A DNA stretch of 64,000 bases, from positions 1,054,001 through 1,118,000 of the forward strand of contig JABYQU010000003.1 of assembly GCA_022264855.1 (NCBI GenBank). The letters run 5' to 3'. Of the stretch, positions 1 through 11,780 are shown one piece after another; position 1 is the first letter of the stretch; each line of letters starts with the position of its first letter. Made by a program: the position numbers and the translations under genes. The notes below the pieces were generated by a model. That model was not told where the DNA came from. It worked only from the letters and a program-made list of their open reading frames with translations, and searched no databases. Source of the DNA: Lenzites betulinus. Taxonomy: Eukaryota > Basidiomycota > Agaricomycetes > Polyporales > Polyporaceae.

Positions 1-680
1 CCCTCCACTATCATCATCGAGCAATTTCGGCCCCCGGTCAACAGTCGTGTCATCGGTGCGTTAACCGCGCGCAAACTTGATTACTCCGCCTCTGAAATCA
101 TGCTACCTTGCAGAACTTCCTGCAGGCAAGCTGCATGACTGCGTTGCTACTTTTGATCTCACACAGCCACAACAGGACTGATCAACGAAGGGGAAACACC
201 TGAAGAAGCGGCCGTACGTGAGCTTGAGGAGGAAACCGGCTTCAAAGCTAGCAGCGTAGTGGAATCCTCACCGCTCCTCGTCTGTGATCCTGGTCAGTGC
301 TGTCGCGCACATGACCGTGCAGAGTGCCTGACGTTCATTCCCTACAGGCATGACAAATGCCAATATGAAACTTGTAACCGTCGATGTTCCTTTTCCTGCG
401 AAGCTCGAAATGCCGGCCCAAAAGCTGGACCCAGGGGAGTTCCTTACTGCCCGCATAGTCGAGCTGTCGAAGCTTAGGGCGGAATTCAAGGGTTCGTCCC
501 TTTCTACTCAGCTCATACATTTTATTAATATCATCGTTCGCAGAGTACGAGAAAAAGGTAAGATAGGCTGACATTGGACACGAGCCACGGCGCTAATATA
601 ACCTGTAGGGTTACACAATCGACGCCAGGCTTGACCATTTGGTATCCGGGTTCGAACTTGCCGAAAAACTCCGAAAGTAG
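1..680 (+). CDS. YSA1: ADP-ribose/ADP-sugar pyrophosphatase, Nudix family (5' partial)
   Basis: Hydrolyses ADP-ribose-type nucleoside diphosphate sugars. The 5' end lies outside the window. I read exons 1-55, 114-125, 176-292, 348-491, 544-557 and 609-680, which join in frame (414 nt). The Nudix box is complete: Gly at the end of exon 2, then [18 protein letters not shown] in exon 3 with the REXXEE core. It is followed by CDPGMTNANM, typical of the Ysa1 branch, and the protein ends near GYTIDARL with TAG at 678-680. Exons 2 and 5 are only 12 and 14 nt. The intron at 126-175 starts with GC rather than GT, and using it restores the conserved ELPAGLI stretch. Family assignment is firm; the micro-exon joins are inferred from family conservation. 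Confidence 0.85.
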
Positions 681-1176: not shown

Positions 1177-2493
1177 ATGCCCTTCCAGGCCCCTCTTTCC
1201 AACTTACAATTCTCTCTCGATCCCTCACAGTTAGCCGGCTTCTTAGGGGCAGATGCCGCTCTAGCAGCCATGATGCTCCCCCATCTTCACGCCCAACGCA
1301 AATGGTGTGGATGGTACAATTGCCCGGGAAGCTACTACCTTGCAAAACGTTATGGTCAACTAGCGCGATTCAGGTTCTGGAGCCCCTTATATCGCCCCTC
1401 CGCTGTTCCCCGGGAACTCGCAGCTGAACTCGGGGGCGCCGTCGGGCCCTCCTTCACGTCTGCCTCCTCTGGCGCTACTCTAGCACGCACTAGCCCACTA
1501 GCCTCCCTGCTCGTAGAGGAATGTAGCGAAATCGAGGCGGTAGAGGTGAAGGGGCGCTGTTCAGACACCGTAGAGGTGGTGATCGTCTCGCTCGATCAAG
1601 CCCCACCCGAGCAACTCTTTCCTAGGGTCCCACATTCCTACTCGAAGCGGCTTGCACTCTTCCCCATCGCGGTCACGGTATCCACCGGCATCGCCTGCTG
1701 CCACTACCACGATTACTATATCGCTACCGTGATATTCCTCAGCGCCCTCTGTCATGGCATTGCCTGTCGAGTCATGGGAGACGCCCAATTCACATACCAG
1801 CACCGCATCCCGCCGCAAACACCCCGCTACGAGTCGGGCTGGCTCAGTACCCCGAGGTCCTTCATCGTCCTAAGCGGGACGGAGGCCGCCATCGCGCCGA
1901 TCAACTGGGGCCGCTTCTCCCTGGCGTTCAACCATTCCATGGAGCACTGCATGGTCACCGCATGTTCCATCCTCCTCGGAATCCAGTTTCTCCTCCAACT
2001 CCTCCTCGTCCCACAAGGCGGTTTTTTCGGACAGATCATGTTCCTCGTATCTGTCGTCGCTGCGTGGTTCTATCACCGCCTCATTCTCGCGCGTGCCAAA
2101 GAGGTGGTCGAGCGCCGTATCTTAATGGCAGACGTCCTCGGCGGACCAAGGATCCAGAAATACCGCTTCGGCACGAGGACCGCGGCGGCAGTGTTCACGG
2201 TTCTCGCGCTCCGACGCGTTATCGGTGCCGACATCCAGGCGCGACTCCAGGCCCTTCTACCCAGCGGCTCGCCGGTCTGGGAGCTTTGGCATGACAGGGT
2301 GACGCAGAAGATTCTTCATGGACTGCCTTTGCGGTTCGAGGATTGCGACTGGGAGTGGCAGAAGATGGCAGGGCTACAGACCGCAGAGAGCCTACTGATC
2401 CACCAGCTATTCGTTGACACTGAATGCGCATACGAGGCGTATGTTAGATACCAGGAAAACGTTGATTTACCACGTCCCCAACAGCGTAACTGA
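1177..2493 (+). CDS. Array copy 1: diverged member of unnamed fungal membrane-protein family
   Basis: 438-residue single-exon protein of a family I cannot name. The start at 1177 (MPFQAPLSN) lines up best with the other copies; an in-frame ATG lies upstream at 940. N-terminal family signature: RKWCGWYNCPGSY, then AKRYGQLARFRFW. Two hydrophobic hairpins follow, separated by a soluble stretch that ends in the conserved RGxFSL-like segment (here WGRFSLAFN). Then come LLLVPQGGFFGQ and a C-terminal soluble domain containing FGTRTAAAVF and a LLP...VW...W motif. With copy 2 it is the most diverged member: it lacks the GVAGFFGGD start (here LAGFLGADA) and the VDPA segment. It ends at TGA without the stop-overlapping splice donor seen in copies 3-5. 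Membrane topology is inferred from hydrophobicity only. Confidence 0.75.
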   Translation: MPFQAPLSNLQFSLDPSQLAGFLGADAALAAMMLPHLHAQRKWCGWYNCPGSYYLAKRYGQLARFRFWSPLYRPSAVPRELAAELGGAVGPSFTSASSGATLARTSPLASLLVEECSEIEAVEVKGRCSDTVEVVIVSLDQAPPEQLFPRVPHSYSKRLALFPIAVTVSTGIACCHYHDYYIATVIFLSALCHGIACRVMGDAQFTYQHRIPPQTPRYESGWLSTPRSFIVLSGTEAAIAPINWGRFSLAFNHSMEHCMVTACSILLGIQFLLQLLLVPQGGFFGQIMFLVSVVAAWFYHRLILARAKEVVERRILMADVLGGPRIQKYRFGTRTAAAVFTVLALRRVIGADIQARLQALLPSGSPVWELWHDRVTQKILHGLPLRFEDCDWEWQKMAGLQTAESLLIHQLFVDTECAYEAYVRYQENVDLPRPQQRN

Positions 2494-3027
2494 CCTTCGC
2501 GGAGCGCTCCGCTGTGTACACATCTGTAAATAGTACCGGTCTAGTTCGTTTCTTCTTTGGCGGGTGCTGTACATCGCATACAGCGTCACGTCGGGCCCTT
2601 TGCGTACAGCCTCGAACTCAGTGAACTCATGGTACTCATCTGGTGCGTAATCCGTCGCGACCAGTTCTGTTTAGTGCGTGGCAGTGAACTTATGGCCGCG
2701 CCCAGAAACACACTCGATTCCCACAGGTACATCTATGTGTCCATATCAGAAACGCTCCGTTCATTACGCTGGGGCTGGGCTCCCCAAAGACACATCGCCT
2801 CTCCTTCATGGTGGCCGGCTCTATTGATCAGCTGTCAGCACACCACTGTCCAGCCACAAACCTTGCTGAGTCCGTTGCTACATAAAAGATTCGAAGTGCC
2901 AATTTGCTGCTTTTCAACAGCCCTTTCTTATTCCTCGTCTACACACAAAGTCGTCTCCTCTTCTCAATTAGTTGTGAGTAAGACACCTCTCCTACCAGCC
3001 AGCATTCTGACACATCGTAGACACACA
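2494..3027. other. Intergenic between copies 1 and 2, with TATA-like site
   Basis: Contains the promoter and leader of copy 2. An open frame in phase with copy 2 extends back to 2557 but shows no family similarity before 3028. A TATA-like CTACATAAAAG lies at 2878-2888, followed by a pyrimidine-rich stretch up to the ATG. Confidence 0.45.
2878..2888 (+). promoter_or_regulatory. TATA-like element upstream of copy 2
   Basis: CTACATAAAAG about 140 bp before the copy 2 ATG. Copy 4 has nearly the same string (CCTACATAAAC) 62-72 bp before its ATG, and copy 3 has GTATACATAA about 90 bp before its own. Sequence match only; no expression evidence. Confidence 0.35.
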
Positions 3028-4275
3028 ATGCAAGGGCAAATGAACACACCCCTCCTCACTGCTGCCTTCTCCGGCTTTGTCGGTGGAGACGCCACTGCCT
3101 CTGCTCACACGGCCTCCTACCTCTACGGTCGTCGAAACGTGCCGAGTCTCTACAACTCCCCCGGAAGCTACGAGCTCGGGAAGCGCCTGGCTGCGGTTGC
3201 GCAATCGCGCTTCTGGGATGGCCTTCACGGTGGAGCTAACGTCGACTCCGACGCCCTCACGCGGACTTCACCCAGCACGGGTGGTCCCAAATTTGTGGCC
3301 TCGTTTTCCGGCACTACTATCGCAAATACCGGCGAAGCTGCTCAAGTTCTCCTCAATCATGTCAAGAACCTCCCCGTAGATGCTGTCGCCGAGGGTCGCG
3401 TCACTGCCCCCTTTGCTGTGACCGTCGCCGATCTCTACTATGCCCCCGCTAGCGAGATCTACCTAACGCTGAAGGTAGCTGCGCCGTTCCTCCCAATCCT
3501 CGCCAGCATCGGTGCTTCGGCTGGCTGTGCCGCCATCGGGGATTGGCACACTTTCTCGATGATCGTGCTCGGCATGGTGTGCAACGCGGCGACTTCAACC
3601 ATCCTTCGGTCGGGTGATCTCACCTTCAACCGCCCCGCTTCTACCCCCGGATCCCCTGCTGGCGACGGCTTCTTGGAGGCTGGTAACGAGATCATCGTCC
3701 TCAAGGGTCATGAAGATGCCGTCTCCGCTGTCACCCGTGGACGCTTCGCGCTCCGCTTCAAGAACGAGGCTGCCCTCGGACGACTCAGCACTGCGGCCAC
3801 TTTGGCCACTCTCCAGTGCCTGGCGCAACTCATTGTTGTTCCTCAAGGTACCGTGGTCGGACAGCTCTGCTTCCTCTTCTCCATTGCCGTCGCCTGGCTC
3901 TACAACGCGCACATGGTCTCCGTCGAGAAGAAGGCCAAGGCCAAGGTCGTCATCGACGACCTCCTCGCGTCCCCGGTCACGAGGCGCTACAGCCTGGGCA
4001 CACGCGCTGCCATGGCGGTCTTCTTGATGCAGGTCCTGAAACCGACGAACATCGAGGAGCAGCTCGCTGCCCTGATTCCGAACAACACGCGCGTCTGGGC
4101 TCTCTGGAGGAAGACGGTCGCGCGCAGGCTGCGGGACGAGAAGCTCGCCTTCGACACCGGAGTGCCCCCGGAGGCCGCAGAGTTCAACGCGCAAGAGAAC
4201 ATCCTCATCCGTACCCTTCTCGGCGACGCTCAGGCCGCTGTCAACGTTTACGTCGCTTCCCGCGGTCGTTTGTAA
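3028..4275 (+). CDS. Array copy 2: diverged member of unnamed fungal membrane-protein family
   Basis: 415 residues, single exon. The ATG at 3028 (MQGQMNT) fits the family N terminus; MNT at 3040 is an alternative. Conserved parts are SGFVGGDA, YNSPGSYELGKR, RFWDGL, GPKF, the paired hydrophobic hairpins (near 3469-3600 and 3790-3910), GDGFL, RGRFAL, VVPQGTVVGQ and LGTRAAMAVF followed by IPNNTRVWALWRK. It lacks the KWLGWYN element that is strict in copies 1, 3, 4 and 5. Its stop (TTG TAA) also contains a GT in the same phase as the predicted 3' introns of copies 3-5, but the donor (GTAATC) is weak, so I end the gene here. Function unknown. Confidence 0.8.
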   Translation: MQGQMNTPLLTAAFSGFVGGDATASAHTASYLYGRRNVPSLYNSPGSYELGKRLAAVAQSRFWDGLHGGANVDSDALTRTSPSTGGPKFVASFSGTTIANTGEAAQVLLNHVKNLPVDAVAEGRVTAPFAVTVADLYYAPASEIYLTLKVAAPFLPILASIGASAGCAAIGDWHTFSMIVLGMVCNAATSTILRSGDLTFNRPASTPGSPAGDGFLEAGNEIIVLKGHEDAVSAVTRGRFALRFKNEAALGRLSTAATLATLQCLAQLIVVPQGTVVGQLCFLFSIAVAWLYNAHMVSVEKKAKAKVVIDDLLASPVTRRYSLGTRAAMAVFLMQVLKPTNIEEQLAALIPNNTRVWALWRKTVARRLRDEKLAFDTGVPPEAAEFNAQENILIRTLLGDAQAAVNVYVASRGRL

Positions 4276-5614
4276 TCAACACGGTGCTGGGTGCACGTCG
4301 CCCTGCATATACCTGCTTCTCTCGACACACGACGCCTTCGTTACCTCCTCTCTAAAGCGATTCAAAACCCTAGTGATACCCCATGCTTCCTTACCCTTCT
4401 TGTTGTCTCAAACTTCTCTTGCACATGTCCTGTCCCCGATGCTACTCTAGACTTCATAGTACTGATACTGGTATTAGGGCGTTGTATCGTCGCTAGCTGT
4501 AACCTTCCTCGTATCTTGTATATCGCTCGACCAGTGCTCTCGCATCGTGATACCATTGCTGCTACGTGTATCCTAGTATCACCGACTCCATGGAGAAGCG
4601 TTCTGTGAATGCGAACTTGCCGCTGTTGGTATGATGCTCCATGAAGTGTATATTACCAAATCAGGCGGGCTCGAGAGAGCTTCACTGGCAAGTGCCGACG
4701 CTCCATCGACTCTGCATCAGCCACGCCACGCGTTGACTGCATTGGACGAGCATCTCAACCTCCCGGCTTTGACTTTTCACTGACCGGCATCTCGTACATG
4801 CACCTGAACCGCGGTGTCGCCTCATTGCAAGGGTAGACCGTAGCCATGCGGTCAGTACAGCATCCCGTGTGCGCTTGCTGAATTCGCCTGCAGCTGACGC
4901 GGCTTAGCATCTGACCATCCGCTGTCAGTAGCTTTGTCGACGATTGCATTGCAGAACGGAGGTTTTTTGCGCCTTCCATTACACACGGGCTATGCGCTGT
5001 CAACGTTATCAGGCGTTGCGGCAACGCGCAACCTGCGTGGTGGCCGAGGAAGTTGGAGATGTGGTAAGTCCACAGTCCGGATCACTTCTTGGACCACCAT
5101 GCTGGCAGGCTCACCCCAGGCGATAGCGTCCATGACGGCTTGCAAGTCGTGCAAACGGGCGTGTGGTCCGAGGCCATCATGAGCGTGCCTTGCGGCGACC
5201 GACTCAACGCCGCCCTTCTCCAGCCTCTTCCCAACTCGATCGTCCAAATTTGAAATCACCTTCCACCGGATAACATCGAGCGAGTACTGTTCTTTGCCAG
5301 AGTGGTCAGAAATTCCTCGTTTCTTACTTCCGCAAAGTCATCTCACGCATGTGGTTATAGTAATTAGTACTCAGGTTAGCGGTGCCAGTGCTCGATAGCC
5401 TGCATGTTCCGTCGCATGCAGCTTCAGGACATATCACTGTGCTTAAGCGTGCAGGCCTGCAGGAGGGAAGTGGATACTTGCACGCCATGCTCTCTCACCA
5501 CATCACAGAGTCAAGCAGTATACATAATGTCGCAGCAGGGTCATAGCGGCGGTTCGTCGATACACTACCTCCGAGTCCTCTGCCTATCACAAATTCAGTC
5601 TCTCAGTCTCTGCT
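4276..5614. other. Intergenic between copies 2 and 3
   Basis: About 1.3 kb. Open frames here are short and resemble no family I know. The last 100 bp hold a TATA-like GTATACATAA (5518-5527) and the leader of copy 3. No repeats or relics of a sixth copy were recognised. Confidence 0.5.
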
Positions 5615-7163
5615 ATGTCGGATACGAAGAAGAGCTTCGACCTCGACATCTCTGGCGTCGCGGGCTTCTTTGGTGGCGACGTCTCGGTTTCCGCCATGGC
5701 GACCGTCCACATCTACGAGGGGCGCAAGTGGCTGGGATGGTACAACCAGCCCGGAAGCTACGAGATCGCGAAACGGTACGGTCAGCTGAGCCGCTCACGT
5801 TTCTGGGACGCACTCTACCCCGGTGTCGACGTCGACCCGGCTATCCTCTTCGAGTTCGACGGGACGCAAGGGCCCAAGTTCATGGCTTCCCAGTCCGGGA
5901 CGGTCTTGGCGAACACCGGCCACGTCGCTCGTCTTTTCGCGGAAGAATGCAAGGATTTGAAGCCGCGTTCGCTTCCCTCCAACATACCGCCGGGGAGGAC
6001 TACGACTCCCGGATCCGTATCCGTCGCGCACCTCTCTCATGTCCCTAGCAAGGAGGAGGAGCCACATCAGGAACGAAACTCGACCAGCATTCTAGCCAGC
6101 ATCCCCATCCTCACATCGCTTGGCGCTTGTGCTGGGTGTGCAGCCATCGGCGATTGGTACTGCTTCGCCATCATTCTCTTGGGCATCATCAGTAGCGGGT
6201 TCTCCTGCTATATGATAGGAATGGGCACCCTGAAGTTCAAGCATCCCGAGGCGGCAACGGGTGCTCCGCCTGGGGACGGTGTGTTGGAGCTGAGTGGGTG
6301 TTCAGAGCTGGTCGTTTTGAAGGGGCCCGAAGGGGCTGTCACCGCGATCACACGAGGACAGTTCTCCCTCGACTACGACAGCAAGCCTGAATACCGCGGA
6401 ATTGGCGTCTGCTCGATGCTCCTCACGGTGCAATTCATCGCCCAGCTACTCCTCGTCCCGCAAGCCTCCCTCCATGGCCAACTCTTCTTCTTGGCTACGC
6501 TCGCCTGCGCGTGGGCCTACAACTCCTACCTCTCCTCCTTCGACAGGGAGAATATCCAGCGGAAGATCCTCCTAGAGCAGGTGATGAAGATGGACCGCAA
6601 GAAGTTGGAGAAGTACGAGCTAGGCACGCGTACAGCCATGGTGACGTTCGCACTCCTCCTCCTTGCTCCAGGGAAGACATCCGCCTTGAAACGCGTCCTG
6701 GACGACCTGCTCCCGAACGACACCGACGTATGGTGTACTTGGAAGGAGGAAGTCCTTGAACGCATCGAAGCTGGTTTCCGTCACAACGATCCGCCCAGCT
6801 TCAGTTTCAACTTCTCTCTGGCTCCGTTGCAACCGGACTCGAAGCTGTCCAGTGAATCGCAGAAGCTTCTGCGAGCTTTGCGGAGCGATGCAGAGGCGGC
6901 AGCCACTGTGTATGGAGTCTATCGCACGGGGCGGTAAGTGTCTGATTCCAATGGTATGCATAGTATTGCTACTCATTTGGCATGTGCGTCTTCGTAGACC
7001 TACGATCGGAGTACCCCTCGACTCGAAGGGCACGGCAACCTTCCGGCCTGACAGTACCCAATACCGTCAGGGGAGCGGCGGCCCGTGGGGATCTTTGGGC
7101 CGCAGTTCCCCGTATACACAACTTAGCAGCACCAGCTCTACCGATACCCTCGCATACAGGTAA
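5615..7163 (+). CDS. Array copy 3: unnamed fungal membrane-protein family, with predicted 3' tail exon
   Basis: The main exon 5615-6937 encodes 440 residues. Signatures are DISGVAGFFGGD (11-22), GRKWLGWYNQPGSYEIAKRY (36-55), RFWDALYPG (62-70), VDPA and GPKF. Hydrophobic segments lie near 158-178, 182-204, 263-282 and 287-305, suggesting two membrane hairpins around a polar segment with PPGDGVLEL and RGQFSLDY. A soluble C-terminal part carries LGTRTAMVTF and LDDLLPNDTDVW. The stop TAA at 6935 lies inside a strong donor (GTAAGTG). Splicing 6934-6997 (ending TTCGTAG) removes the stop and adds a 55-residue Ser/Thr/Gly-rich tail ending with TAA at 7161-7163, total 494 residues. Retaining the intron gives the 440-residue form. 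No enzyme motif is seen and the function is unknown. Closest to copy 4. Confidence 0.78.
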
Positions 7164-8435
7164 AGAACTTCTCGCTTTATATTTAACATGCGGTCCCTCT
7201 TCACTTCTCCGCCCCATCGCCCAGTATTGTCGTGTAGTACTAGTAGTATGAACCAGCAGGCTTCGTAACTTTTATTCACTTTCCGTGTTGTGTATCCCTG
7301 CCTACAACATTATATATGCCCCGGAGATCTAGAGCGTTACTATTTCAAGACCTGTACCGACGCAGAAAACTAGAAGTACTGAGTACTGAAAGTATGTACT
7401 GAGGCGTTAATTGACGTCCGCGGATCCGGATCCTCCGAGATGGGCCAATATTTAAAATAAGCGCCCTATGCTCCCAGCTGCTTGTATACTACTGTGTACA
7501 TGCGTTTGAGTCTCTTCCTCTACTACGATGTGTGGCCGCCTGTTGCTTATACTATCGCTGAGCTTTCCACTATAATGCGACGGACTCATGGGATATTAGA
7601 AGCCATGCAGCATGTAGACCTCGAATAGTCGTAAGTCGGTGAGTGAACGGTCCCGACAGTGTTAACGTTGCCTCAGTTTTGCAGAGCATCGGGTATGTAA
7701 GCGGCCTTCGCTCTTCGACTTGATGACCGTCTGTTTACATCTATACATCTCATAGCCACGCCGTGAAAAAAATTGTACCATCATGTCATGCCAGTGCAGA
7801 ACTAGCTGTCCGTCACCCTCCGTCACCCGTGGATGTCCAATGTACAACTGACCTGAACTCGCCGTTCCTTGCAGGCTACAAGGCGGTGGGCACCCGTGGT
7901 GCAGAAAGTTGCATGCATGTAGTATGCGCTGCTTGGTGGCCCGGGAAGGCCATGCATGAGCTACGTGGTGGCCCGAGAAGACCATATTTTGGTAAGTCAG
8001 ATACGTACTACAAAGGTACCAATCACCAGGTACTCGGGCTTACTAGCGCACCAAAACGCATGCGGAAAGGCGCGTGCACAGAAGGTCTCGATTTTTGTAG
8101 CTCCAGGAAGTTGCAAAACGTGCGCGGCAACGCTACTACCCGTTCCCGCCCGGTTTTGCAATCGACCTGGCATTAATACCCAACCGTAACGATACCACGC
8201 TAAGGCCTCACGCCGAAGGTCAGTGTGTCCTGTGACCTAGGAGAAGCGCAAGGAACTTCTGTGGACCTCTAACTACTCTATGCATCATGCCAGATTAGCT
8301 GCACGGCACGGGGTGGTCCAGCGTGCAGGCAATGTGTAGGCAGGACTTCCTCTAGGTCAATAACCTACATAAACGTCGGGCTTGTTGCGAGTTCGTCCAT
8401 CAACTGGCATCTCCCTCCATCGACTCGTTCAGAAA
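7164..8435. other. Intergenic between copies 3 and 4
   Basis: About 1.3 kb, relatively AT-rich. No supported gene. A TATA-like CCTACATAAAC lies at 8364-8374, 62 bp before the copy 4 start. No repeat shared with the other intergenic gaps was recognised apart from this string. Confidence 0.5.
8364..8374 (+). promoter_or_regulatory. TATA-like element upstream of copy 4
   Basis: CCTACATAAAC at a normal TATA distance from the ATG at 8436. It matches the element in front of copy 2, hinting that the array promoters share ancestry or control. Confidence 0.35.
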
Positions 8436-9866
8436 ATGTCTTCAAAACACGGATTCAATCTCGACATCTCCGGCGTAGCAGGCTTTTTCGGTGGCGACGT
8501 TTCCGTTTCCGCGATGGCGACCGTTCATATCTACCGAGGGCGGAAGTGGCTGGGATGGTACAATCAGCCCGGAAGCTACGAAATCGCGAAGCGGTACGGT
8601 CAACTCAGCCGCGCGCGCTTCTGGGATGCGCTATATCCCGGTGTCAACGTCGATCCTGCAGCCCTGTTCGGCCTCGACGGAACCGTGGGGCCCAAGTTCA
8701 TCGGCCCCAAATCCGACACTGTCCTGTCAGGGACCACCCATGTCGCCCATCTGTTCGCGAAAGAGTGCGAAAGCACGCGACCGCGGATGCTACCTCCCGG
8801 GATCCCTATGCGACTGAGGAACTCCGGCTTCGTCACCATCGCTAATCTGACATACACCCCACCATTCGACACGGTCCCTACCCAGAAACGCGATTTAACC
8901 ACTACCTTGGCCTGCTTGCCAATCTTCACGTCGATCGGCGCATGCGTGGGATGTGCAGCCATTCGCGACTGGTATTGCTTCGCGATCATCCTCCTTGGCA
9001 TCATCAGCAGCGGCCTTTCTTGTCTTGTCATAGGCATGGGCACCCTGAAGTTCTCGCATCCCACTCCCGCAAACGGCGTCCCCCCTGGAGACGGTATACT
9101 CGACTGCAAGAGCACAGACTCGTTGGTGATCTTGAAAGGGCCAGAAGGCGCAGTCAACTCGATAACCAGAGGACATTTCTCCCTCGACTACAGCAGCAAG
9201 CCCGAGTACCACACTATCGGCGTTTGCTCTTTGTTGCTCACTCTCCAGTTCGTTGTCCAGCTCATCCTTGTCCCTCAAGCCACCCTTCACGGGCAGCTCT
9301 TCTTCCTTGCTTCCCTCATTTGTGCATGGGCCTACAACTCCTACCTCTCCTCATTCGACAGAGAGAGCATCCAACGAAACATCCTCTGCGAAGAGGTCCT
9401 ACGAGTAGCGCCCGAACAACTCGAGAAGTACCATCTAGGCACTAGGACCGCCATGGTCACGTTCGCCTTGCTCCTTGTTGCACCCGCGGAAACGCATGCA
9501 CTACGAAGAGTGCTGGACGACCTCATCCCGAACAACACCGCTGTGTGGCGCCATTGGAAAAGCGAGGTTCTTCGATGCGTCGAAGAGGCGTTCGACCAGG
9601 ACGCTGTGACCTTCACGTTCGACTTTAAGCCGCCGGCCGAAGCTTTCCCTCCAGAAGCGCAGTGGCTTTTGAATACTCTGTTCCGTGATGCAGACACGGC
9701 GGCTGCCATGTATGGATTATATCAACAAGGAAGGTGAGGCCTATGCTCTTGTTCATGGGGATTTTGGATACTTACGACACACCACTGCGCTAGGAACGCA
9801 CCGGATATACCTTCGAAGGACAACACCCCGAGCTACATAGGGGATGCGGCCTTGCAATACGCCTAG
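8436..9866 (+). CDS. Array copy 4: unnamed fungal membrane-protein family, with predicted 3' tail exon
   Basis: The main exon 8436-9737 gives 433 residues starting MSSKHGFNLDISGVAGFF. An in-frame open stretch from 8382 precedes the family N terminus and is treated as leader. All copy 3 signatures are present, and by eye this is its closest relative: GRKWLGWYNQPGSYEIAKRY, RFWDALYPG, VDPA, GPKF, PPGDGIL, RGHFSLDY, LVPQATLHGQLFF, AWAYNSYLSSFDRE, LGTRTAMVTF, LDDLIPNNTAVW. The stop TGA (9735) overlaps a donor (GTGAGG). Splicing 9734-9793, with a CTTAC branch-like site and acceptor GCGCTAG, replaces the stop with a 24-residue polar tail ending at TAG 9864-9866, total 456 residues. Intron phase (2) is the same as in copies 3 and 5. 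Confidence 0.78.
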
Positions 9867-10353
9867 CAAAGTCGTAAGTTGTACCTGCGTCTTTAGTTGG
9901 AGACCAGGGCGGCGTACTGAACAAGGACATCCCCATTTTGCAGAGCCTGAGCGAAGGAGCCCTCCTAGCCATTATGCGTTCCTAGTGCTATGTATTCCTT
10001 TGTACTGTCCCAGCTGTCCCTTGCGTATCCTATGTATCTCTTGTGTGCCTTGCGAAGTGTAGCCAATTCATCGTCGGGGCGCTTGGCATCCGCTTGGGAA
10101 ATCAGTAACCTGAACGTGGCTGTGCGGCTAACATCCGTTGGTCCCGGTAATTGGTTCGCAACTTCCCATCGCTTATGTTGGACATCGTACCCATCTCGTC
10201 TTACACAGATGACCACCATGAGGCAGCCTGCCCAGCGGCAATGGTCCCGTCTCTTCTCTGGTTCCCTTCGTCGTCGGACTCTCCCCACACCTTCTTTGCA
10301 CCGTCACCCTGCACCCTAGCCCTTCAACCTTTCTGCAACAACCTGGGCATGCG
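9867..10353. other. Intergenic between copies 4 and 5
   Basis: About 490 bp, the shortest gap in the array. Ends in a pyrimidine-rich leader before the copy 5 ATG. No clear TATA box or gene. Confidence 0.5.
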
Positions 10354-11780
10354 ATGTCCCCGACGATACCCTTGAAGAACTCGCAGTTCAATCTCGACAT
10401 CTCCGGCGTCGCTGGTTTCTTCGGAGGAGATGTCGCCGTCACTGCGATGGCGACCGTCCACATCTATCAGGGGAGGAAGTGGCTGGGGTGGTACAATTCG
10501 CCGGGCAGTTACGAGATCGCCAAGCGTTACGGCCAGCTGGGGCGATCGCGATTCTGGGACGGTCTTTACCCAGGGATCAACGTCGATCCCGCTGTGCTCT
10601 TCGAGCTTGACGGCATGCCAGGGCCTAAGTATCGCGGAGTGCAGTCTGGTACCATTATCTCGAAGACGGGCCACCTCGCCCACCTATTCCTGCAGGAGTG
10701 TAAGGACACCTCGAGACATCACCCCATCCTCCGAGTACCACAGGGCCGGAAGACCACGCCCATCACCGTGACTGTCGCTGAGCTGCATCATACGCCCGAC
10801 ATTGAGGAACATCCTCGCCTCTTCCGCAACGCCACTAGCCCACTTGCCAGTCTACCTATCATGGCCTCGATTGCTACCTGCGTCGCCTGCCTGGTCTACC
10901 ACGACTGGTTCTGCTTCTCTATGATCCTCCTCGGGATGATCAGCAGCGGCGTCTCGTGCTTTGTCATCGGAACCGGCGTATTCACCTTCACCCACCCAAA
11001 CCATGCCAGCGGCGCGCCGGCGGGGGACGGCGTCCTGATCGCCGAGGACAAGATAGTCGTCCTGAAGGGAGCGGAGGGTGCTGTGACGCCAATCACGAGG
11101 GGACGCTTCTCGCTCAAGTTCACGAGCGAGCCCGAGTACCACAATATCGGGGGGTGCTCGATGCTGCTCACCGCCCAGTTCCTAGCCCAGCTGCTGCTCG
11201 TTCCTCAGGGCGAGATCTTCGGCCAGATCATGTTCCTCTGCTCCCTCGCCGTCTCTTGGGGCTACAACTCATACCTCTCCTCGCTGGATCGGGAGAGCTT
11301 TCAGCGCCGGATTCTCATGGAGCAGGTCCTGCGGAACCCTGTCAAGCGCAAGTACGAATTCGGCACTAGGACCGCGATGGCTGTCTTTGTGCTTCTTGTC
11401 CTCTCTCCGGCCGACGCGGATTCTCTGAGGAAAATCCTGGACGATCTCCTACCCAACGAGACAAAGGTCTGGAGGATTTGGAAAACGGAGGTCATCGAGA
11501 AGGTCAGCAGCTCAAAACATACGGCGGACGCCCCTCGCGACTTGAGGACGTCGCTGTTCGACTACCAGGCCGATCACAACCTGAGCAAGAACGATCTGAA
11601 GTTGCTTCACACGTTGTATGACGACGCTCGTGCAGCATTCGATCAGTACTATGAGTGAGTCAGCTCTTACAGCCTGGCATGCTTGAGCTAATTTGGTATT
11701 TGTGATGTAGTCGGTCGTTTGACGCCAGTACGTTCGAACGCAGTACTAGGCCTTCTTCCTTCAGTGTTTCCAAGGTCTAA
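10354..11780 (+). CDS. Array copy 5: unnamed fungal membrane-protein family, with predicted 3' tail exon
   Basis: The main exon 10354-11658 encodes 434 residues from MSPTIPLKN. It has DISGVAGFFGGDV, GRKWLGWYNSPGSYEIAKRY, RFWDGLYPG, VDPA and GPKY, two hydrophobic hairpins around PAGDGVL and RGRFSLKF, LLLVPQGEIFGQ, GYNSYLSSLDRE, FGTRTAMAVF and LDDLLPNETKVW. The stop TGA (11656) is embedded in a consensus donor (GTGAGT). Splicing 11655-11710, with branch-like GCTAAT and acceptor GATGTAG, gives a 23-residue Ser-rich tail ending at TAA 11778-11780, total 456 residues. The intron sits at the same relative place and phase as in copies 3 and 4. Role unknown; a multi-pass membrane protein is inferred. 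Confidence 0.78.

Follow-up and report, generated by a model that had tools for sequence, protein, structure and literature searches.

The 64,000-nucleotide stretch of the Lenzites betulinus genome analyzed here (the window) carries at positions 1177–11780 five head-to-tail paralogs that, judged from their sequences, form an old and conserved array of intact genes, and the encoded proteins are predicted to span the membrane four times as two tight hairpins, with the soluble stretches all lying on one side. All five genes are on the + strand with no internal stops in any frame, and their coordinates are listed in Table 1. The unspliced frames are 415–440 aa long, each longer than any open reading frame (ORF) in resampled DNA (first 12 kb resampled at random 100 times with an order-1 model; longest ORF mean 206, maximum 300 aa). 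The spliced products of copies 3 and 4 are identical letter for letter to the deposited L. betulinus proteins, copy 1 is present in the databases as C2E23DRAFT_290845 with an N-terminus longer than the window frame, and the Trametes gibbosa orthologue of copy 3 ends in DSTETLAYR, compared with the copy 3 ending shown in Table 1. The splice in copy 5 is predicted from its GT/AG sites and the open frame. The five-gene array proposed in the initial annotation is thus confirmed by five intact + strand frames and by the deposited proteins matching copies 3 and 4.

Table 1. Features of the array, with positions in the window.
Feature	Position	Strand	Remarks
Copy 1	1177-2493	+	438 aa; intron not needed
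Copy 2	3028-4275	+	415 aa; intron not needed
Copy 3, exon 1	5615-6933	+	Open frame; spliced product is P0006 (494 aa)
Copy 3, exon 2	6998-7163	+	C-terminal tail, last residues STDTLAYR; stop included
Copy 4, exon 1	8436-9733	+	Open frame; member of the copy 3/4 clade
Copy 4, exon 2	9794-9866	+	Short tail, stop included; spliced product is P0007 (456 aa)
Copy 5, exon 1	10354-11654	+	Copy used for structure prediction
Copy 5, exon 2	11711-11780	+	Short tail, stop included; putative splice GTGAGT...TAG
Copy 5, hairpin 1	10834-10971	+	aa 161-206; from model and hydropathy
Copy 5, hairpin 2	11140-11283	+	aa 263-310; from model and hydropathy

The relationships among the copies indicate that the array is ancient. 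Amino acid identities to copy 3 are 33% for copy 1, 37% for copy 2, 67% for copy 4 and 58% for copy 5, in agreement with an earlier by-eye ranking of copies 3 and 4 as closest, copy 5 as intermediate and copies 1 and 2 as most diverged. In a tree of 60 rows, made up of 58 proteins selected by hand from 236 and two genome copies, each of copies 1, 2, 3 and 5 has its own orthologues in other Polyporaceae, those of T. gibbosa being 85% (P0049), 88%, 88% and 91% (P0008) identical, respectively. Copy 1 is the most diverged lineage of the array, and copy 2 orthologues are spread across the Polyporaceae; placement in this tree is unsure for the long rows C19 and C54, for the sisterhood of copies 1 and 2 (80/70) and for copy 4 (93/84). 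An earlier FastTree tree of 87 rows, flagged for joined long branches, is not the one relied on here. Among the matches listed, 19 of the 26 named copy-2 relatives have a relative of the copy-3/4/5 type on the same contig. Corrected dS is at least 1.42 in nine of the ten pairs of array copies and undefined in the tenth, such that synonymous sites are estimated to be near saturation, and every one of the ten pairs has a pN lower than its pS. Because of the separate orthologues, the contig linkage and the near-saturated synonymous sites, we regard the array as old and kept rather than as a recent stepwise burst, and the stepwise local duplication suggested at first is too recent a picture. The L. 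betulinus genome contains at least nine matches (from one protein query) and has dispersed copies besides the array.

Profile searches identified 448 relatives at E 0.01 and 551 at E 1. The named relatives among the best 120 listed come from the Polyporales, the Boletales and a single species of Agaricales, and are labeled hypothetical or uncharacterized with the exception of one Ganoderma boninense protein labeled alcohol oxidase, which we take to be a labeling error; no other named match listed has a functional name. The unnamed homologues in Polyporales, Boletales and Crucibulum align over nearly their whole length and belong to the same family, which among the matches listed appears in mushroom-forming fungi only. 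Some short contigs encode full-length relatives, and these might be transcripts; no conclusion here draws on them. No relative was found in seven bacterial or archaeal stretches matching one peptide pattern, nor in 132 stretches of viral contigs matching four patterns, both scans being limited to pattern carriers. Searches of Pfam-A with the five copies gave nothing at the curated cut-off, the sole match being DUF6832 on copy 5 (E 0.19; 11.8 bits versus 26), and with 84 diverse members at E ≤0.5 they gave 23 families, one in two members and 22 in one, with a best E of 0.0032 and curated cut-offs compared for the first member only. NCBIfam, a library made for prokaryotes, likewise gave no match at cut-off (PRK10378.1 on copy 5, 12.4 bits versus 297), and no paper in the open-licence PMC literature could be tied to the family by gene names or keywords. 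The absence of a named family, claimed in the initial annotation, therefore holds for the five copies, the 84 diverse members and the profile searches. Its further description as an undescribed system stands as far as the protein family is concerned but not for a set of associated genes, since no common partner was present among ten hand-picked ORFs beside the array and dispersed copies. Seven of these ORFs score above the Pfam cut-off (HET twice, NUDIX, SDA1, helicase C, tnp2 transposase and ABC), one has a reverse transcriptase match below it, and two have no Pfam match.

An AlphaFold model of copy 5 built with 143 sequences (pLDDT 92.9, pTM 0.91) places the membrane helices at residues 161–181, 185–206, 263–285 and 288–310, and together with hydropathy it upholds the two hydrophobic hairpins noted earlier. 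The modeled hairpins are 46 and 48 residues long with 56 residues between them, and their turns are just 3 and 2 residues, so that the N-terminal, middle and C-terminal soluble stretches must lie on one side of the membrane. TM1 and TM4 each have a conserved helix face (permutation p 0.002 and 0.001), with a weaker signal in TM2 and TM3 (0.073 each). Summed K+R frequencies are 1.94, 1.08, 2.90 and 2.81 in the four soluble-side 15-residue stretches and 0.21 and 0.03 in the turns; however, the turns total five residues and the soluble flanks are also rich in acidic residues (0.80–3.08 per 15), and the positive-inside argument for a cytosolic soluble side is correspondingly thin. In Foldseek searches with the model, no match from the PDB or from viruses was significant.

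The motifs quoted in the initial annotation are all present in array copies, although conservation across the 143 aligned sequences distributes differently from what was proposed. The N-terminal motif, described as strictly kept, does lie within the stretch of highest conservation (mean pairwise identity 0.62), but its aromatic part is lost in the clade of copy 2, which accounts for 23 of the 143 sequences: W43 and G45 are each retained in a single sequence, and position 46 has a V/L/A/F/R-type residue instead of W in nearly all (L in 12, A in 6, F in 3 and R in 1), with N48 kept in 22/23 and P50 in 23/23. In copy 2 itself, both the W and the GW of this motif are missing. Since the second hairpin is almost equally conserved (0.59) and this clade lacks the aromatics, conservation offers no particular pointer to an N-terminal module for specific binding, as had been suggested; the N-terminal 160 residues folded alone gave a pLDDT of 37.5, from an alignment of the five window copies that is too shallow for judging whether they form an independent module. 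Hairpin 2 contains the near-invariant residues Q275, Q279, P284, Q285, G290, Q291 and W302, with the four glutamines kept in 142, 141, 135 and 142 of 143 sequences, respectively. None of the three copy-1 clade sequences among the 143 retains G224 or D225, which belong to the GDG segment.

The reading that we favor, at a probability of roughly one in three, is that these proteins act as a self-associating membrane complex. The soluble stretches would fold into a single body facing the cytosol, and hairpin 2, with its four near-invariant glutamines around an invariant proline and glycine, would provide an intramembrane contact or a polar lining; the soluble body may serve as a platform for partner binding or for gating of the assembly, and the paralogs would be retained as non-interchangeable subunits, possibly co-assembling. 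Glutamine and similar polar residues are described as promoting oligomerization of model membrane helices (PMC1190194). The cytosolic placement is weakened by a putative N-glycosylation site, N368-x-T/S370, kept in 134/143 sequences, a pattern that would fit a luminal or external soluble side, although T370 directly precedes helix 371–385 in the model, which offers a structural alternative. A broader version, in which the fold has no solved relative and arose in mushroom-forming fungi, and the linked ancient paralogs of Polyporaceae are subunits of one hetero-oligomeric membrane complex, is doubtful.

The same features of hairpin 2 could instead line a polar path in a small-solute or ion channel or transporter, a possible though not favored explanation, for which one can cite residues within TM3 and TM4 or next to them, namely the four near-invariant glutamines and the invariant P284 and G290. 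A structural or conduit role seems likelier than an enzyme. A new type of membrane-bound enzyme, acting for example on lipids and having its active site where the soluble body meets the membrane, is unlikely: R132, D225, E241, R249, R339 and D424 are kept in 94–99% of the 143 sequences, in or beside the GDG and GxEGAV..TRG segments, but D225 is missing from the copy-1 clade, and neither an enzyme family at cut-off nor a significant fold match was found. Conservation of His and Cys stays under 90% throughout the 143 sequences (the highest is C179, 0.87), which disfavors thiol, metal or His-dependent catalysis, and the earlier remark that no catalytic motif is evident holds; the 27 polar, charged or Trp/Tyr positions conserved at ≥90% leave room for an unusual enzyme.

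Less likely again is membrane shaping of the reticulon/REEP type, in which the two hairpins and an oligomeric scaffold would bend the membrane. Pfam includes a reticulon family, and it is not among the matches to the five copies. The array proteins resemble the reticulon homology domain (RTN, REEP/Yop1p) in having two hairpins split by a hydrophilic stretch and termini on the same side; the stretch is comparable though not identical in length, 56 residues versus the 66 given for reticulons (PMC3918113), and Yop1p is reported to act via TM-mediated oligomers (PMC10162974). However, their hairpins are longer than the 30–35 residues given for reticulon homology domains (PMC10162974), they have a large folded soluble part, two regions of which are as highly conserved as the hairpins, and the helix after TM4 (313–325) lacks amphipathic character (moment 0.03, permutation p 0.986). 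An allorecognition or defence locus, with diversified tandem copies telling self from non-self, would accord with the presence of an array plus dispersed copies and with the two HET-domain ORFs next to the C19 copy, but is highly improbable: four of the five array copies persist as stable orthologues across species, in contrast to alleles of fast turnover, pN is the lower value in every pair of copies, and the other ORFs scanned, two next to the C68 copy, two next to the C54 copy and those next to the array, have no HET match. That the copies are non-expressed relics of an old duplication, a prospect raised initially, is scarcely credible and largely refuted, since all five are intact and copies 1, 2, 3 and 5 have the 85–91% identical T. 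gibbosa orthologues; one relic does exist elsewhere, the C54 fragment, which over 96 residues matches the end of the C68 copy at 90% identity.

Two further membrane protein families invite comparison. Tetraspanins share the four-helix plan and likewise carry conserved Gln/Glu in TM3 and TM4, but are defined by a large extracellular loop with CCG/PxxCC cysteines (PMC1190194), whereas here the TM3–TM4 turn is two residues and no Cys is conserved at 90%. SNB1 of Coprinopsis cinerea (snb1), described as having seven predicted transmembrane helices and a DUF6533 domain, is similarly from an Agaricomycete membrane family without known biochemistry and sets a precedent for a developmental role (PMC10949477). 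Membership of the array proteins in the SNB1/DUF6533 family was rejected, with four helices here versus seven (PMC10949477) and DUF6533 absent among the Pfam matches.

Many conserved families in the Agaricomycetes are unnamed, and SNB1 belongs to one that is reported to be required for fruiting-body differentiation (PMC10949477). The family described here has a model for which the searches run here yielded no significant solved counterpart and a few near-invariant residues open to mutation, and its linked old paralogs provide natural comparisons. With hundreds of homologues and a confident model, near-invariant residues and linked old paralogs, it is a practicable starting point in the search for a new membrane-protein function in mushroom-forming fungi.

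The five paralogs belong to a family that is real, intact, ancient and unnamed, and we put its identity, age and hairpin anatomy at a probability of about 0.9. The array, in a 37.4 Mb genome, is as real as the initial annotation proposed: all five + strand frames are intact with no internal stop, and the longest open reading frame in 100 random resamples keeping neighbour-base composition was at most 300 aa. Copies 1, 3 and 4 are matched by deposited Lenzites betulinus proteins; introns are unnecessary in copies 1 and 2, and splicing at 6933/6998 (copy 3) and 9733/9794 (copy 4) yields products identical to those deposited. Intron retention in copies 3, 4 and 5 gives an in-frame stop directly at the donor site, so their unspliced frames end there. 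Much of the spliced tail of copy 3 (6998–7163) is variable, and its end, S-T-D/E-T-L-A-Y-R, possibly a short binding motif, is common to the T. gibbosa orthologue. A NUDIX hydrolase exon (PF00293, E 4e-9) lies upstream of the array at window 157–477.

Features of the array and of the dispersed copies (C19, C54 and C68, other L. betulinus contigs; L010, L013 and L014, stretches around their family members)
Feature	Position	Strand	Remark
Five-gene array	1177–11780	+	head to tail
Copy 5 intron, inferred	11655–11710	+	frame continues to stop at 11780
C54 fragment, 133-aa frame	L010:1501–1704 = G000:C54:620309–620512	-	~4 kb from intact C54 copy
Two HET-domain ORFs (PF06985, heterokaryon-incompatibility)	L014:1650–4025, L014:7177–9663 (L014 = G000:C19:273501–283500)		adjoin C19 copy
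tnp2-type transposase ORF (PF02992, E 1e-24)	L013:5656–7236		~5 kb downstream of C68 copy

Profile searches, each scoring ~8000 candidates, returned 448 proteins at E ≤0.01 and 551 at E ≤1, the latter set when diverged members served as the start; copy 2 as sole query gave 55 at E ≤10. The organisms named among the matches listed, which for each profile set are the best 120, all belong to Polyporales or Boletales except Crucibulum laeve, the single Agaricales species, four placements being confirmed by look-up and the others presumed from general taxonomy. Pattern-limited scans found no relatives in 84,980 prokaryotic species or in the viral collection. The Ganoderma boninense member P0153 carries the source label 'Alcohol oxidase', apparently a mistake.

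Identities to copy 3 are 33% (copy 1), 37% (copy 2), 67% (copy 4) and 58% (copy 5). Across all ten pairs there are 0.64–0.77 synonymous and 0.22–0.48 amino-acid-changing differences per site; the corrected synonymous distance is undefined for one pair and 1.42 or more for the other nine. Synonymous sites are thus near saturation and the splits old, and dN/dS (0.16–0.43 in computable pairs), in line with constraint, is not closely readable. In a maximum-likelihood tree of 60 rows, one 40-row clade (98/94) holds all five window copies, Grifola and Polyporaceae proteins and the C19 copy, with the C68 and C54 copies outside. Inside this clade, support is 100/100 for each of three groups: copy 1 plus three relatives, copy 2 plus ten Polyporaceae proteins, and copies 3 and 4 plus seven others. 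Copy 5 clusters with six Trametes/Pilatotrama proteins (100/99), this last group joining a Ganoderma, Dichomitus, Lentinus, Fomes and Daedaleopsis set more weakly (89/70). Because the copy 2 and copy 5 groups both span Trametes and these five genera, their split predates the genera. Copies 1, 2, 3 and 5 are 85%, 88%, 88% and 91% identical to their own T. gibbosa partners, all on a contig of 393,066 nt; no T. gibbosa counterpart of copy 4 is named among the matches listed. With these orthologues and the synonymous saturation, the suggested stepwise local duplication is old and not a recent burst.

Among the matches listed, 19 of 26 named copy 2-type proteins from other records share a contig with a copy 3/4/5-type protein of the same organism; as equal size in nt serves as the proxy for a shared contig, and contig size can reach megabases, this indicates linkage, not adjacency. 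The partner is on a different contig for the second T. polyzona copy and T. cinnabarina; for T. cubensis, G. sinense, G. leucocontextum, G. boninense and the second D. squalens record, none is on the same contig among those matches, or the contig is not given. To judge by locus tags, copy 2 and copy 3/4 may be neighbours in T. sanguinea (002559/002560), copy 3/4 and copy 5 in T. versicolor (13237/13238), and copy 2 and copy 5 in G. adspersum (010766/010768). Within L. betulinus, nine matches came from a single protein query: the array copies, full-length C68, C19 and C54 copies, and a C54 fragment. This fragment, a relic of a further duplicate, aligns over 96 residues with the end of the C68 copy at 90% identity.

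The AlphaFold2 model of copy 5 (143 sequences; pLDDT 92.9, pTM 0.91, no residue below 50) has four membrane-length helices paired into two hairpins with turns of 3 and 2 residues, concordant with alignment hydropathy. Strands lie in the N-terminal (92–95, 137–144), middle (209–213, 226–229, 233–239, 251–255) and C-terminal (330–336) soluble stretches, and the model, judged without coordinates, suggests that the three build one composite body. Mean identity over 2000 random pairs is 0.62 (14–75), 0.40 (76–160), 0.48 (hairpin 1), 0.52 (middle), 0.59 (hairpin 2), 0.44 (311–386) and 0.33 (387–434). Seven columns are invariant in 143/143 (G51, G239, G250, P284, G290, F294, W373). The N-terminal motif had been called strictly kept, but its aromatic part is gone in the copy 2 clade. 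Since, besides this loss, the copy 1 clade lacks the G and D of the GDG segment between the hairpins, the copies are not simply interchangeable.

The most unusual feature of the family is the near-invariant Gln in or beside TM3/TM4 (135–142 of 143). Polar residues in membrane helices favour association (PMC1190194), and for this reason we prefer, tentatively and at less than even odds, a self-associating membrane complex in which these glutamines would act; a polar conduit comes next. In the alignment neither His nor Cys reaches 90% conservation at any position, which tells against the usual kinds of catalysis; a membrane enzyme of unusual type is a less likely reading. The soluble side is provisionally placed in the cytosol, with one tension in N368-x-T/S370, kept in 134/143; as the alignment profile has no hydrophobic stretch ahead of hairpin 1, translocation of the 160-residue N-terminus is unlikely, and the cytosolic model is therefore kept.

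The array was put forward as a candidate for an undescribed system; judged by the few neighbouring ORFs scanned, it has no partner genes that would make it recognisable as a system. We rate the family among the multi-pass membrane families of basidiomycetes that are lineage-specific and of unknown function, a class within which it stands out for combining a confident model, for which Foldseek gave no significant PDB or viral match, with old, linked paralogs.
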